This document shows, in pieces, positions 1 through 12,470 of a DNA stretch of 23,174 bases (within the stretch, counting starts at the first letter, position 1; each line of letters opens with the position of its first letter). The stretch comes from a virus: positions 1 through 23,174 of IMG/VR virus record IMGVR_UViG_3300036651_002016. The stretch is one strand, 5' to 3'. The notes under the pieces are model-generated. The model saw only the letters and a list, made by a program, of their open reading frames with translations, had not been told where the DNA came from and made no database searches. Position numbers and translations under genes: made by a program.

Positions 1-447
1 GTTGAAGACGGCCGGCGTGCCTGTCGTGCCCGCGATGACAAGGTCGGCACTGGTCTCGAAGTAGATCGGGTCAGAATCAACCGACAGTGTGGAGACACGG
101 GTGCCCGCCGGAATGGTGGTCGAGCCGAGGTTGGGCGCGATGGTGAATAGCAGCGGCACGGTGGCTGCGTTGGTGCTGTTCGGTCGGTAGTCCAACATCG
201 ACGCGAGGTTCAGCACAGACCGTCGCTGCGTCGCGGTCTGCAGGAACGCCTCATTGGCGATGCGGTCACCGTAGTAACTCAAGATGTCGCCCATGTAGGC
301 GAAGAGCTCAACCATCACGACACCGAAGTCGTTGGTCGAACGCGACGTCCACTGCGGCAGCAGCGTGGTGGCCTGGGCCAGCATGTCGTCGCGCAGACCG
401 GCAAAGTCCTTTGAAGTATAGTCAATGACGAGGCTCGTCGACGCCAT
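1..447 (-). CDS. Baseplate wedge protein, gp6/J-like, N-terminal part (runs off the window)
   Basis: This is the first 149 residues of a baseplate wedge subunit of the T4 gp6 / Mu-P2 gpJ family (baseplate J-like), which joins gp25-like subunits to form the wedge ring around the hub. The reading frame stays open to base 1, so the gene is cut by the window edge. The family-typical start is visible: MASTSLVIDYTSKDFAGLRD, then an acidic aromatic stretch (VELFAYMGDILSYYGDRIANEAFL, residues about 46-69), then a beta-rich part with TIPAGTRV near residue 113. The ATG overlaps the stop of the upstream HNH gene (TGATG), and its ribosome binding site (AAGGAG) lies inside the last HNH codons. The position right after gp25, interrupted only by the HNH gene, fits the usual gp25-gp6 order. 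Its first eight residues are repeated at the start of the HNH gene. Confidence 0.9.
   Translation of the reverse strand, partial: MASTSLVIDYTSKDFAGLRDDMLAQATTLLPQWTSRSTNDFGVVMVELFAYMGDILSYYGDRIANEAFLQTATQRRSVLNLASMLDYRPNSTNAATVPLLFTIAPNLGSTTIPAGTRVSTLSVDSDPIYFETSADLVIAGTTGTPAVFN
424..447 (-). repeat. Copy 2 of recoded 5' gene end (codons 1-8 of the gp6-like gene)
   Basis: These 24 bases encode MASTSLVI as ATG GCG TCG ACG AGC CTC GTC ATT. The same eight residues are encoded at 903-926 by other codons. Eight of 24 bases differ, including a serine switch between the TCN and AGY families. Confidence 0.85.
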
Positions 448-926
448 CAGGGGGTCTCCTTCTGCTTGGCGCGGAAGCGCCGTGCGGTCTCGGCCCGACA
501 CGCCTTGCAGTGCCTCGCACCGTTCTTCTCCACCCAGAGATTGTCGCCGTCCAGAGGGTGGTCGTTCTTGCAGTGCGTCTTGTCATGGTTGACCTTGGCA
601 GAGCCCCGAAGGCCATGCTCCAACCAGTGAGCGGAGGCGGTCAGCAGCTCGAGGTGAGACAGCTCACGGCACCGCGTGTTGTGGCAGAGGTGGTGCAGAT
701 TGTGCCCGAGCGGCAACGGGCCATTGGCGTTCTCCCACACCCACTGGTGCACGCGGTAGGAGTGACCGCCGATCTGCACCATGCCGTAGCCCTTGGTGGT
801 CGCGCCGGTCCAGACGTAGCAGCCGTCTTCCTGGCGCACGCAGTAGTAGTCGACTCGCTCGGCCGGATCCATCGTGCGCGCCGCATGCCACGACAGTGGC
901 TCGATGACGAGACTGGTGCTAGCCAC
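447..926 (-). CDS. HNH homing-type endonuclease inserted between gp25 and gp6 genes
   Basis: A 159-residue HNH nuclease of the free-standing homing endonuclease type. The central part (residues about 45-101) has the HNH_3-like pattern GGHSYRVHQWVWE, then GHNLHHLCHNTRCRELSHLE, with His78/His79 and Cys81/Cys86 in the nuclease core. The C-terminal part carries a second Cys/His set (HCKNDHPL near 118-125 and HCKAC at 139-143) that looks like a small zinc-binding module followed by a basic tail. The GTG start at 926 overlaps the gp25 stop (GTGGCTAG), and the stop overlaps the ATG of the gp6-like gene. The first eight residues, MASTSLVI, are the same as the first eight of the gp6-like protein and do not look like nuclease sequence. 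The functional start could instead be Met19. Its role in virion assembly, if any, is unlikely; it is probably a selfish element. Confidence 0.9.
   Translation of the reverse strand: MASTSLVIEPLSWHAARTMDPAERVDYYCVRQEDGCYVWTGATTKGYGMVQIGGHSYRVHQWVWENANGPLPLGHNLHHLCHNTRCRELSHLELLTASAHWLEHGLRGSAKVNHDKTHCKNDHPLDGDNLWVEKNGARHCKACRAETARRFRAKQKETP
903..926 (-). repeat. Copy 1 of recoded 5' gene end, now the N-terminus of the HNH gene
   Basis: These 24 bases encode MASTSLVI as GTG GCT AGC ACC AGT CTC GTC ATC, starting inside the gp25 stop region. I infer this was the original start of the gp6-like gene before the nuclease gene was inserted, because it keeps the tight overlap with gp25 that is usual in this operon. 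Confidence 0.75.
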
Positions 927-1341
927 TGCGCTCCTCCTGGGTGACCTCGCCGCGGTAGAGCACCGCGGTATTGATCGGCAACGAGAGGGTCTGCAGCGGA
1001 CTGTTGGCCGCCGAGTACGTCACGTTGAGGGTGATGATCCCATCCAGCGCGTCCGTCGTATCGGGGTACACGCTCTGAACAACAACACCGGGCTCCCACC
1101 GGTCGATGGCCCGCTGGATGTCGGTGGTGATGATCGACGTCGTCATCTCGTCGTCAGCCTCGAACAGCAATGCGGCCAGAGGCGCGCCGTAGTCCGGCCG
1201 CATGACCCGCTCCTGCAGCGCGGTACCAATCACGGTCTTCACCCGGTTCCGCAGCACCTGCGCGGGGTCGCTGGTGAAGGCAATCTGTCCCTGCGCGTTG
1301 ATGCGGAAGGGCTGGTCGATCTCGACCTGCTGCTGGATCAT
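919..1341 (-). CDS. Baseplate wedge protein, gp25-like (GPW/gp25 family)
   Basis: A 140-residue protein of the T4 gp25 / P2 gpW family, a conserved baseplate wedge component that in known contractile tails contacts the first sheath ring and starts sheath assembly. The family core is visible: DPAQVLRNRVKTVIGTALQE, then RVMRPDYGAPLAALLFEADDE (residues about 45-65), followed by a predicted amphipathic helix with the EPGVVV segment and a final beta-hairpin region (IITLNVTYS). The length is normal for the family. The ATG overlaps the upstream stop as ATGA. Next to it in the expected order is the gp6-like wedge gene, but an HNH gene separates the two here. Confidence 0.92.
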   Translation of the reverse strand: MIQQQVEIDQPFRINAQGQIAFTSDPAQVLRNRVKTVIGTALQERVMRPDYGAPLAALLFEADDEMTTSIITTDIQRAIDRWEPGVVVQSVYPDTTDALDGIITLNVTYSAANSPLQTLSLPINTAVLYRGEVTQEERSG

Positions 1342-1763
1342 CCGAGCTCCCTCAGGGCCTTCGCCACTCGTACGACATCCTCATCCGACAACGACGGCGG
1401 CTCAGACAGTTTGGGATTGGCGGCCTGCCACGCCTTCTTCTCGCCGGCCGTCATTGCCCGCACCTGACTGGTGCTGTGGTCGTAGATGTGGCCCTCGTGC
1501 GTGGGCATGGGGTCAGTGTCAGCCAGAACATGAACGCCCCGCAGCGGTGTGGCTGCTTGGATCTTCTGGTGGGAGTCGATGAGTGAAGCGAGCTGAAGAC
1601 TGCGACCATAGGCGAGATGGTCGTCGATCTGCTTCTGCCACGCGTCGATCTCGGCCTGCGTGCCACCGCTCAACGCTGGGCTGGGACCAGTAGCGGGCGG
1701 GGAGATGAGCGCCTCACAGATGTGGAAGAGGTGGCCGTTCTCGTCGTACTCGACGTACTTCAT
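1338..1763 (-). CDS. Unknown tail-region protein, possible fibre accessory protein
   Basis: A 141-residue protein, mostly hydrophilic, that I do not recognise. It begins MKYVEYDENGHLFHICEALI and has a predicted helical middle (QAEIDAWQKQIDDHLAYGRSL, written here in part) and a helical C-terminal tail ending SLSDEDVVRVAKALRELG. The ATG at 1763 was chosen because it gives a TGATG overlap with the spike-fibre stop; a GTG three codons upstream (1772) is possible. It lies between the fibre-bearing spike gene and the gp25 gene, a place where fibre chaperones or fibre-attachment proteins often sit. That role is inference only. The mention of tyrosine/aspartate-rich N-terminus and helix-rich remainder is all the sequence shows. 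Confidence 0.75.
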   Translation of the reverse strand: MKYVEYDENGHLFHICEALISPPATGPSPALSGGTQAEIDAWQKQIDDHLAYGRSLQLASLIDSHQKIQAATPLRGVHVLADTDPMPTHEGHIYDHSTSQVRAMTAGEKKAWQAANPKLSEPPSLSDEDVVRVAKALRELG

Positions 1764-3772
1764 CAGATCCACTCCGTCACTTCGTACGACAGGCTTTGGT
1801 TGCCGGTCGCGTTGTACATCATCCCCCAGGTAATAGATGTCGACGACGCGAGTGCTGCAGCCCCTCCATTACCAAACATCGGGCTGCCGTTAGTACTGCC
1901 GCCCATTGTTGCCCGCAACTGTGCATTTGCCAGATTGACACTGGCGATGGTCACCGCTGTCCCTGCAGAGGCGGATCCACGAATGGTCTGGTTGATCCTC
2001 ATGCCGGCTCCCTGGCCCAGCACAACCCACGTCGTCCAGTTGATTCCGCCTGAGCCATTGTCAGATCCCCGTCGCGTGTAAATGACATCGGAGCCGCCAG
2101 TCATGTCGTAGACGTTCTGTCGTTGCCATAACGTGGTGTTCTCGTGGGCGAACACCTCGAGAAAGATCCAGCGGGTGTCCCCCCACGGGTTGTTGGTGGT
2201 GTTGCTGCCGTTGTAGACACCCGTGGTGAAGTTCTGATTCAGACTCTGGCTGTTGATGTCGGTGGTGTTCACCGCAGTGCTGCCACCGACGGTACTGGCT
2301 CCCAGTGCGCGTCCCTGAGTAGCCACGCGGTGGCCGTTGTCGTAGATACCGCTTGTGCCGGTGAGAGTTCCGCTGGCCGTGAGGTTGTTACCGACGAGGG
2401 CGTTGCCTGAAGCATCCACACTGAAGCGATTGGTGAGCGTAATCGCTGCCCCTGCCGCGACACCGGGCGCGTTTCCGAACGCAAATCCTCCGGTGCCCAT
2501 CTGGAAGAAGGAGTGCTGCCCAGCGCCAGAGCTAGTCGCAACTGCACGCCACGACGTACCGTCGTAGTAGGCGTTGTCCGACCAATAACTATTGCCCGTT
2601 GCAACGGTCGGGTTGTAGCTGAACCAGCCTGTCCGACTTCCCAGCCGGAGGGCATTTGCCGTTCCCGCAGAGCCCGAGGTGGCGTTGTCGACGTTGACCC
2701 AGAGTTGCCCGGTCATCGTGTCGCCGGCTTTCAGGACGCCCGTTCCCGTCGCCATCGCTCCGATGCTGGCCGGGGTGGGAGCTGCAGGTGTGCCGTGCGT
2801 GTGGTCATTGCGGGCGTACGCCGTGCCCGTCCCGACGACCGACGCGGCTCCGAAGGAGGTGGCTGCGACCACCGTGCTGGCGAGGTTAGGGTTGCCGGCG
2901 CTGTACTTCGTTGGCAGCAGATTGAGCACCGAGCCGACGATCAACGCGCTGCCCATCTGGGACTGCAGCGTCGAGATGTTGCTGTTGGCCCCAGCCAGCG
3001 CCACATTCGTGGCGAAGCTGGGGAGCTGGGCGTTGATGCTGTCCACTGCTGTCTGCAGCGCGTATGCCGGTACGCCCGACAGTCGTGCCCACGGCACGAT
3101 GCCCGAGGTCAACGTCCCGGTGAGGGCGATGTCACCCGAGACCGACGTCGTGGCTGCCGTGAAGGTCTTCGCCCCGCTGATTGTCTGCGCGGTGTCCGTC
3201 GTCGCCATATTGCCAGGCACCGGACCCCCGCCAGGCTGACCCGGCGCGGGGGGCGGGTTGGCAAAGCCGTACTTGCTGTCGAGCGCGGCCTGCAGGCCCG
3301 ACGTGTTGGCGATGCTCCAGTTGTTGGTCGGCACGGTGACAGTGCCGCTGAACGACCCGGTCGTGGCGGTCACTGCGCCGCTGAAGGTCGCCGAGGTGGC
3401 GGTCAGTGCCCCGGTGAAGGTGCTCGCACCGGCCGAGATGCCTGCGCTGAACGTCTTGCGACCGGTGGCAGTCTGCACGGTCGACAGCGACATGACATCG
3501 GCCGAGTCGTGCGGGATGGCCGAGCTGACCGCCGACACGGGTCCCAGGCCGATCCATACCGGCAGCCTTGTGTCGCCGCCCTCGTACAGGACCCACACCG
3601 GATCGCCTGGTGCAGGCACCACCAGGGGGATGGCCGGAGTCCGCATCGGCTTGGCCCAGCTCGAGGCCGCATTGCCATGCACCGCTGCGACGTGGGCAAT
3701 GATCCGCCCGCGGCCCTCGGGGTCGACGTTGTTGATGACCGTGCCGCGGTAGATGCCGTAGAAGTGGTTCAC
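1763..3772 (-). CDS. Baseplate spike (gp5/gpV-like OB domain) fused to a tail-fibre with pyocin-knob-like end
   Basis: A 669-residue chimera. Residues about 1-75 look like the OB-fold domain of the gp5/gpV spike family (GIYRGTVINNVDPEGRGRI, then PMRTPAIPLVVPAPGDPVWV and LPVWIG). Residues about 85-240 are S/T/A/G-rich fibre repeats of the type TFSGAVTATTGSFSG, with a Pro/Gly-rich hinge near 175-190 (PPPAPGQPGGGPVPG). A DHTHG motif near 322 resembles HxH metal-binding sites in fibre shafts. Residues about 500-585 match the pyocin-knob style domain (DINSQSLNQNFTTGVYN, then WIFLEVFAHENTT, WQRQNVYDM and WTTWVVLG), and the end is beta-rich. The GTG at 3772 forms a GTGA overlap with the hub gene; the open frame upstream of it overlaps the hub gene and is not real. 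Usually spike and fibre are separate genes. Confidence 0.85.
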   Translation of the reverse strand: MNHFYGIYRGTVINNVDPEGRGRIIAHVAAVHGNAASSWAKPMRTPAIPLVVPAPGDPVWVLYEGGDTRLPVWIGLGPVSAVSSAIPHDSADVMSLSTVQTATGRKTFSAGISAGASTFTGALTATSATFSGAVTATTGSFSGTVTVPTNNWSIANTSGLQAALDSKYGFANPPPAPGQPGGGPVPGNMATTDTAQTISGAKTFTAATTSVSGDIALTGTLTSGIVPWARLSGVPAYALQTAVDSINAQLPSFATNVALAGANSNISTLQSQMGSALIVGSVLNLLPTKYSAGNPNLASTVVAATSFGAASVVGTGTAYARNDHTHGTPAAPTPASIGAMATGTGVLKAGDTMTGQLWVNVDNATSGSAGTANALRLGSRTGWFSYNPTVATGNSYWSDNAYYDGTSWRAVATSSGAGQHSFFQMGTGGFAFGNAPGVAAGAAITLTNRFSVDASGNALVGNNLTASGTLTGTSGIYDNGHRVATQGRALGASTVGGSTAVNTTDINSQSLNQNFTTGVYNGSNTTNNPWGDTRWIFLEVFAHENTTLWQRQNVYDMTGGSDVIYTRRGSDNGSGGINWTTWVVLGQGAGMRINQTIRGSASAGTAVTIASVNLANAQLRATMGGSTNGSPMFGNGGAAALASSTSITWGMMYNATGNQSLSYEVTEWI

Positions 3773-10946: not shown

Positions 10947-12470
10947 TCACCCTCCGGTGACGGTCGTGCCGGCCTCGAACTGGCCGACCTTGATGACAAT
11001 GAACTCAGCCGGCGTGATGAGGCTGACGCCCACCTCGACGTTGATGACGCCCTGCGAGATCGACTGCGTCGTGTTGTTCGTGCTGTCGCAGACGATGTAG
11101 TACGCCTGGCTCGGGCTGTTGCCCTTGAGCAGACCAGACGCCCAGCACGACGCCAGGAAGGTGTCGAGCACCGTCTGGACGCGCTGCCGCGTCTGCGTGG
11201 TGTTGGGCTCGAAGATCGCGAACTGGGTGAGGTTGATGACGTTGCTCTTGACGTAGATCAGCGAGCGCCGGATCGGGACGTAGCGCGTGCTCGCGCCCGT
11301 CTGCAGGGTGCGCGCACCCATGACCACGACGCCACTGCCCGGGAGCTGCCGGATGGCGTTGACCTGGGCGACGTTGAGGTCGTCGAGGTCGGTGCTGACG
11401 AGGTTGACCGCCGGGGCCAGTGCACCAGCAATGCGGGCCTGCAGCCCGGCCGGAGCCTTCTGGATGCCACGGGTGGCGTCGGTCAGGGCGATGAGACCCA
11501 GGATCGCGCCGGTCGAGTTCTGGATGCGGGTTGCCCCCGAGACCGTCGAGGCCGGGTTGGCGGCGATGACGGGCGGCCAGTAGACCGCACCGTACGACGA
11601 GGGCGTCAGGCCGCTGGCTGCGGTGATGGCCGCCGCCGAGGTGGTGATCGTCGTCGGCAGCTCGCAGACCGTGAAGACATCGCCACGGTTCTGCCCGTAG
11701 GAGATCGCCAGGCTCTGCTGCGCCGGGGTCGCGCCCGGCACGCCCAGGTTGACGGCCTCCGAGACGTTGTCGAGGAGCTGGATCGCGTTGCCGAAGTCAG
11801 CGTCGACCGGAGCCGCGCCATCCAGGCCGTTGGTGAGCTGACGACCGGCCTGCACCGCAGGCAGGTTGTTCGGCGCGGCCGTGACCGACGGCGTGGCGGG
11901 CTGGGCGACATTGATGTACGCCGACCCGCCCTGTGCGTTGTTGATGACGGTCAGGACGTAGTTGGGCTGCGTCGGGTCCATCGTCAGCCCGCTGAACCGC
12001 TCCACGATGTAGGACGTCGTGATGCCGTTGAGGTAGACCGTGAGGTCGAACTGCGTCGCCGGAGCACCAGACCCGGGGGTGTCGGTGATGTCGACGTAGA
12101 TGTTGTTGCCCCACGACCCGGGGTTGGCCGCGTTGATGACCAGGGTGGCGAGCGGGGTGCCTGCGCGGTCGGTCAGGGTGCGAGTCGCGGCAGCCGCGCC
12201 CGCACCGGGCACACGCCAAGCCCACAGCCGCGACCCGCCGTTGGCGAAGAAGCCGTACGCCTGGAAGGAGAGCTCGGAGGCTCCCACCGTGGAGACGTCG
12301 TGGAACAGCCGGGCGAACCCGGAGTAGCTGGTCACCACGGTCGGAACGACGGGACCACGAGTGGCCGCGCCGACGAGCGCCCCAGTCGAGGTGCCGACCG
12401 TGCCGGCCGGGTTGATCGTGAGCGGAGGACGCTCTTCGAGGAAGACGCCGGGGCGCTTCAGTGTCGCCAT
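10947..12470 (-). CDS. Contractile tail sheath protein
   Basis: A 507-residue sheath subunit, which surrounds the tube and shortens on infection. The start is typical: RPGVFLEERPPLTINPAGTV, then TGALVGAATRGPVVPTVVTS and SYSGFARLFHDV, and GSRLWAWRVPGAG. A variable beta domain follows (residues about 95-230, containing NPGSWGNNIYVDITDTPG). The C-terminal half has the conserved parts: GAVYWPPVIAANPASTVSGA, PAGLQARIAGALAPAVNLVS, LPGSGVVVMGARTL, RYVPIRRSLIYVKSNVINL and, at the very end, VEVGVSLITPAEFIVIKVGQ. The last strand and the N-terminus form the mesh that holds the sheath together. ATG start, GGAG seven bases before it. The order sheath then tube and the clear family pattern make this the anchor gene for the whole window. 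Confidence 0.97.
   Translation of the reverse strand: MATLKRPGVFLEERPPLTINPAGTVGTSTGALVGAATRGPVVPTVVTSYSGFARLFHDVSTVGASELSFQAYGFFANGGSRLWAWRVPGAGAAAATRTLTDRAGTPLATLVINAANPGSWGNNIYVDITDTPGSGAPATQFDLTVYLNGITTSYIVERFSGLTMDPTQPNYVLTVINNAQGGSAYINVAQPATPSVTAAPNNLPAVQAGRQLTNGLDGAAPVDADFGNAIQLLDNVSEAVNLGVPGATPAQQSLAISYGQNRGDVFTVCELPTTITTSAAAITAASGLTPSSYGAVYWPPVIAANPASTVSGATRIQNSTGAILGLIALTDATRGIQKAPAGLQARIAGALAPAVNLVSTDLDDLNVAQVNAIRQLPGSGVVVMGARTLQTGASTRYVPIRRSLIYVKSNVINLTQFAIFEPNTTQTRQRVQTVLDTFLASCWASGLLKGNSPSQAYYIVCDSTNNTTQSISQGVINVEVGVSLITPAEFIVIKVGQFEAGTTVTGG

Follow-up and report, generated by a model that had tools for sequence, protein, structure and literature searches.

A homing-type, free-standing HNH endonuclease gene has probably (at roughly 80%) inserted into the 5' end of a phage gp6-like baseplate gene, captured the native start of that gene as its own, and brought along a replacement start written in different codons. 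The case was found in the window, the whole 23,174-nucleotide stretch of IMG/VR virus record IMGVR_UViG_3300036651_002016 that was analysed, and the same arrangement recurs at several other genes. Introns, inteins or intergenic gaps are usually regarded as the only places where homing nucleases can persist among essential genes. A captured start paired with a recoded replacement would be a third way, one that dispenses with splicing, provides the nuclease with a promoter and a ribosome-binding site at no cost, and, if true, makes any protein gene a harmless home for a nuclease without an intron or intein.

Two copies of one gene start

The minus-strand contractile-tail operon of the window carries a gp25-like gene, then an HNH_3 gene and, at its end, a gp6/Baseplate_J-like gene (Table 1) that matches phrog_6 (E=4e-17) and phrog_219 and, weakly, the Baseplate_J/Gp6-like families of Pfam. 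The HNH and gp6 ORFs lie in different frames and are tightly packed: the stop of gp25 overlaps the captured start and the HNH stop overlaps the restored one, and each of the two starts is preceded by a putative purine-rich ribosome-binding site inside the end of the preceding gene, the first of them in the last gp25 codons. Elsewhere in the window, a minus-strand ORF at 21220-21945 matches PF23140 (podophage GP4 fibre protein Gp80) despite the contractile tail sheath in the operon.

Table 1. Features of the window locus, in order of transcription
Feature	Position	Strand	Basis or remark
Tail sheath gene	10947-12470	-	Same window operon
gp25-like baseplate wedge gene, 140 aa	919..1341	-	GPW_gp25 PF04965 E=2.1e-14; phrog_43; translation
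AGGAGG, putative ancestral gp6 ribosome-binding site, now preceding the HNH gene	933..938	-	Sequence; 6 nt before GTG
GTGGCTAG, 8-nt overlap of gp25 stop and HNH start	919..926	-	Same overlap for gp25/gp6 in many HNH-less relatives
Captured (probably ancestral) gp6 start VASTSLVI, now HNH N-terminus	903..926	-	Sequence; relatives' junctions; score test
HNH_3 endonuclease gene, 159 aa, phrog_826 family	447..926	-	PF13392 E=2.5e-12; phrog_826 E=5.1e-34
ATG, possible original HNH start	872	-	Relatives' alignment begins near residue 15-19
HNH domain	approx. 627-758	-	Inside HNH_3 gene
AAGGAG, putative new gp6 ribosome-binding site, in final HNH codons	456..461	-	Sequence
TGATG, HNH stop overlapping restored gp6 start	445..449	-	Sequence
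Restored, recoded gp6 start MASTSLVI, 5/7 conserved-aa codons changed	424..447	-	Sequence
gp6/Baseplate_J-like baseplate wedge gene, 149 aa visible	1..447	-	Runs off window at base 1

The HNH ORF (926-447) opens GTG GCT AGC ACC AGT CTC GTC ATC GAG, or VASTSLVIE with the GTG read as Met, and the gp6-like ORF (from 447) opens ATG GCG TCG ACG AGC CTC GTC ATT GAC, or MASTSLVID. The two 24-nt copies are identical at 16 positions, and all eight differences, including an AGC/TCG switch, are synonymous or ATG/GTG; the likeness of the captured-start DNA to gp6 extends two bases beyond the 24 nt (ATCGA / ATTGA). The initial annotation had described both genes as beginning MASTSLVI in copies that differ at 8 of 24 bases with a serine codon switch, and its coordinates and sequence hold up. 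So does the AAGGAG that it placed in the last HNH codons ahead of the downstream copy, which would serve there in ribosome binding. It had also raised the possibility that many unrelated HNH proteins open with these residues. A degenerate scan of viral contigs for MASTSLVI[DE] returned three unrelated genes, so HNH proteins have no general MASTSLVI beginning.

Over the HNH core the window protein scores 46.7 bits against PF13392 (cut-off 24.8), and its relatives align only from about residue 15-19, which indicates that some 14 residues have been added at the front of the nuclease. The motif reads HH...RELSHL where the aligned relatives have DH...NP/xHL (NPxHL): the HH and the final HL are kept, with His-His for Asp-His, and RELSHL replaces NPxHL at the central Asn. 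With this Asn lost, the activity of the window nuclease is uncertain, and it may be weak or dead. Chromosomal phrog_826 HNH genes interrupted by two or three stop codons occur in three actinobacterial genomes (L264, L267 and L268).

HNH genes often reside in introns and inteins. Could this one be the ORF of a group I intron or an intein in gp6? The arrangement makes that very improbable: the HNH ORF with its stop fills the entire insert, and gp6 follows in another frame, which excludes an intein, with its own ATG and putative ribosome-binding site. Nor did intron RNA appear at either of two loci searched, window 1-2000 and the Malisha locus described below (L297), where Rfam gave no match up to E=5.

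gp25-gp6 junctions in relatives

Which copy is the original? The gp6 gene has about 144 relatives in IMG/VR, and junctions were collected by fetching relatives with the gp6 N-terminus (two sets of 80 viral loci plus seven genomic loci); a gp25 query against IMG/VR found no relatives. The HNH gene is absent from all of ~110 distinct gp25-gp6 junctions. gp25 normally adjoins gp6 directly, and in most junctions the end of gp25 and the beginning of gp6 share 1, 4 or 8 nt, the 8-nt form RTGGCTRR (gp25 ...G-stop, gp6 Met-Ala start) being common among these HNH-less relatives. The junction shared by L053 and L054 reads GTGGCTAGCACC, the first twelve bases of the window HNH gene (in L053, gp25 ends ...RG* and gp6 begins GTGGCTAGCACC), and the gp6 start of L242, VAEIAPNIDYTS, equals the upstream copy of the window in length and in spacing to the IDYTS core. 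Since the gp6 start of the relatives overlaps the gp25 stop in the same manner, the window HNH gene begins where their gp6 begins. The upstream copy thus occupies the ancestral position, and comparison of these junctions supports the proposal of the initial annotation that it is the old gp6 start: HNH-less relatives have gp25 and then directly gp6, often with a GTGGCTAG-like overlap.

The residues ahead of the conserved IDYTSKD core differ widely among gp6 relatives, and MASTSLV is found in none of them, so that the HNH-borne copy must derive from the gp6 of this lineage or a close one; the MASTSLVI match appears specific to the lineage of the window. The initial annotation had counted the absence of MASTSLVI-like residues from HNH-less relatives as evidence against insertion. 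The absence is literally true, but the refutation fails, because these relatives are at most ~57% identical and the N-terminal tail is conserved in none. The collections searched hold no close empty-site relative of the window (the best gp6 relative is at ~57%) and the phages searched no close DNA relative, so for the window the case for insertion draws on distant relatives and on parallels at other genes.

Start sharing at other genes

HNH relatives came from viral contigs, bacterial genomes and phage records, and the N-terminus of the nuclease was set against the beginning of the following gene. The resulting table is limited to 135 distinct HNH genes with a downstream neighbour starting -12 to +25 nt from the HNH stop, and mismatched pairs serve as the null. 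A shared start at a score of at least 31 is seen in five of these tightly coupled genes against 0.06 expected, a count that depends on the threshold, of which several forms were tried. About 0.04% of mismatched HNH/downstream pairs reach 31, and the shared start of the window is not a product of chance. Besides the window with its gp6 target, the five comprise an N6_N4 DNA methyltransferase (L122; VTAVVLRGDARRLPLP / MTAIVIRGDAAHLPLP), a head-tail adaptor (L339; MAASPAQVPCEP / MAAPPEQVPCSP), a RusA-like resolvase (L325; LDLFGDRPLTV / LDLFGQRPLTV) and, with weaker residues, an unknown protein (L338). The Gordonia phage Malisha is a further case, absent from the table solely because its N-terminal part is longer than the limit applied. 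In start-sharing cases the HNH stop touches or overlaps the beginning of the gene that follows, and the HNH start is mostly coupled to the preceding gene too. The codons of unchanged residues are silently recoded throughout: 5/7 in the window, 13/18 in Malisha, 5/11 in L122, 5/8 in L339 and 7/10 in L325.

Local alignment without a fixed register leaves Malisha, L122, L325 and L339 clear and the other non-window cases near background, so that L120, L338, L333, L379, L345 and L425 are only suggestive; a stricter filter drops L122 and L338, for technical reasons. Among the weaker candidates, L333, L379, L425, L120 and L338 score 21-31, near or above background, with L120, next to RecT, at 22. The scanned cases all belong to HNH_3 (PF13392) / phrog_826, most examined members of which have an N-terminus not common to the next gene. 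The first seven HNH relatives (L002-L008) have no shared start with the next gene, and a comparison of HNH tails with upstream gene tails, as expected of C-terminus capture, gave nothing above the null. The shared start of L103 (MPLRFWAKVR / MPARFWAKVR) was rejected as start capture: it belongs to a tandem pair of HNH paralogues.

Two further patterns were seen in the collection. HNH genes repeatedly stand directly upstream of RecT, single-strand annealing protein, SSB or DnaQ genes with unshared starts (L294 and L299 in Gordonia phages, L293 in Mycobacterium phage Mutaforma13, L302 and L301); no shared start was found in the RecT-linked Gordonia genes L294 and L299, the DnaQ-linked L301 or the SSB-linked L302. 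At L345:1730-2504, the N-terminal part of the HNH ORF, MADNTPIEWADATVNAINGCSILSPDRGIIFSA..., resembles a DUF5131-like start and has a high match to an unrelated gene that follows HNH in L457, while the next gene in L345 itself starts MADKGVIFSAAMVRALL; possibly this ORF carries two captured starts in series.

Malisha and its sister Spooky, both cultured and sharing the host Gordonia terrae 3612, provide an inserted and an empty allele of the same site. Malisha gp29 (HNH) starts MRVVKLRGAGESLGGRNMLSSIAGEDLP and the following gp30 (lysin B) starts MTRVYKLRGAGEPLDGRNMLSSIPGHEV; Spooky has no HNH gene at lysin B. The two phages are exactly identical over the 2,787 nt before the start, and the first 83 nt of Spooky lysB match the front of the Malisha HNH gene at 83/83 positions, after which identity ends abruptly. 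The Malisha HNH gene has thus entered lysB behind base 83 and begins with the native start of that gene; after it comes another lysB, with a new start, 84% identical to that of Spooky to the right of the junction. The general mechanism put forward in the initial annotation is thereby confirmed in an unrelated cultured phage, and it is this comparison, and only this one, that proves start capture at the DNA level. Just past the break (L297:2374-2400), 25 nt match Spooky lysB at 14 positions, shifted by one base, and are perhaps the decayed remains of a longer captured segment in the donor.

The recoding in Malisha also ends at the insertion point. In codons 1-30 of the restored lysB, 71-73% of unchanged-residue codons differ from relatives, and in each later 15-codon block 13-45% do (about 35% elsewhere in the gene). 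The lysB relatives compared with each other over the same 5' region differ by 0.00-0.45, with no recoding excess. The whole change in Malisha sets in at the insertion point, and the replacement is one-sided, to the right.

Could neighbouring phage genes simply share eight residues by coincidence or convergence, MAST-like starts being common in phage genes? MA[ST].. starts are indeed frequent among gp6 relatives. The window identity is 8/8 and takes in SLVI, five pairs were seen where 0.06 were expected in 135, and Malisha and Spooky show a true common origin in DNA, which refutes coincidence as a general account and makes it highly implausible for the window.

The origin of the recoding is harder to settle. 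It may be unrelated to immunity, the restored start being the 5' end of a diverged foreign gene copy that arrived with the element by recombination. Right of the junction, lysB of Malisha is unlike that of Spooky along its whole length, the two starts of L122, L338 and L120 differ in amino acids too, and passages of two papers on fungal mitochondria trace replaced gene ends to foreign donors (PMC3630166, PMC7315562). Against such a donor, the excess divergence of Malisha is confined to the part upstream of the insertion point, with the remaining lysB ordinarily diverged; the window differences are all synonymous, in a segment otherwise variable between relatives; and phages with lysB relatives contain no similar patch, the best DNA match among 50,697 phage records being 74%. 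With no known phage carrying the recoded patch, recoding in situ and an unsampled foreign donor are indistinguishable, and a foreign origin is a serious contender that falls somewhat short of even odds.

A selective account looks to the repeats themselves. With the HNH gene between them, the captured start and the restored one form direct repeats of 24-84 nt. Homologous recombination between these repeats would cleanly delete the gene, and long identical stretches are broken in every case (16/24, 50/81, 33/45, 22/33 and 24/45 identical nt), as expected if recoding was selected against such loss. A 24-nt repeat is too short to be a strong recombination substrate in most hosts, and the window's 24-nt repeat is as recoded as the 84-nt one, which leaves selection on repeat stability rather doubtful as the cause, though it is not exclusive of immunity.

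Proposed mechanism and known homing elements

The preferred reading remains insertion of a homing-type HNH gene with capture of the native start. Its point of entry in gp6 would lie behind roughly codon 8-9 and border on the conserved IDYTSKD motif. The original start, ribosome-binding site and gp25 overlap of gp6 would have stayed in place and would now begin the HNH gene as an in-frame fusion, through which the nuclease would be expressed within the baseplate operon without a promoter of its own. Past the HNH stop, the element would carry the missing start once more, written in other codons, and complete gp6 would be read from the new ribosome-binding site at the end of the HNH gene. By analogy with homing enzymes, the nuclease would cut the uninserted junction, and repair of the break from an HNH-bearing co-infecting phage would copy element and replacement start together. 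Recoding, which the initial annotation read as a source of self-immunity, would make the inserted allele uncuttable and stop loop-out between the repeats; the recoding itself is real, but it could equally serve the stability of the repeats alone or reflect a foreign donor. The cultured inserted/empty pair makes homing and self-immunity directly testable.

Chances are about equal either way that phages carry a widespread class of homing elements that insert just inside gene starts, use the native start and its ribosome-binding site for the nuclease, and bring codon-shuffled, nuclease-immune versions of the first 8-28 codons. Such capture would swap gene starts between phages, and its recurrence at baseplate, lysin, methyltransferase, connector and resolvase genes may steadily yield mosaic and misannotated gene starts.

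Among phage systems, the T4 Seg/Mob enzymes are free-standing homing endonucleases that cut far from their own gene (PMC2988022), so a cut site need not equal the insertion site, and in mycobacteriophage cluster J HNH insertions lie upstream of lysA with exact junctions (PMC3706429). Passages of these papers describe free-standing genes among essential phage genes, with variable presence and empty-site relatives, and the present case is alike: the HNH gene is an ORF of its own outside any intron or intein, the window gene is missing from the ~110 junctions of distant relatives, and at one site the gene is present in Malisha and absent from Spooky with an exact junction. The T4 and cluster J genes are insertions between genes, unlike the window HNH gene, which probably lies inside a gene start, and a word search of the available text of both papers (PMC2988022, PMC3706429) gave no captured start with a recoded replacement. 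A word search of the available text of the wider literature retrieved no phage report of start capture; that it is new in phages is a lead, not proof.

The closest precedent comes from fungal mitochondria, in homing elements that duplicate the end of a gene. Passages of PMC3630166 describe mobile endonuclease ORFs (mORFs) with a C-terminal duplication in Allomyces macrogynus atp6 and in Glomus sp. atp6, atp9, cox2 and nad3. As in the phage case, an endonuclease ORF sits at a gene end, and a second, DNA-diverged copy keeps the host gene whole; for one fungal gene, one copy differs from a relative by synonymous changes only (PMC3630166). The same doubling of a host gene end around an endonuclease ORF is seen at 903-926 plus 424-447 in the window, and in Malisha the native copy is the HNH head and the divergent copy the lysB start. 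The fungal mORFs replace the 3' end and encode LAGLIDADG or GIY-YIG enzymes, and the displaced native end persists as a relic, not expressed for atp6 and cox2 where tested, according to these passages (PMC3630166). The phage elements encode HNH enzymes and replace the 5' end, and the displaced native start serves again, for translation of the nuclease. Other fungal mitochondrial elements, with duplicated N-termini, carry an N-terminal copy of the host gene able to replace the native one, and are mainly introns or downstream relics; unlike the phage case, the passages of PMC7315562 that describe them mention neither overlapping start/stop coupling nor a captured start used by the nuclease. The phage element follows the mORF principle without being a member of that group: an HNH gene at the N-terminus, not a mitochondrial LAGLIDADG or GIY-YIG ORF at the C-terminus.
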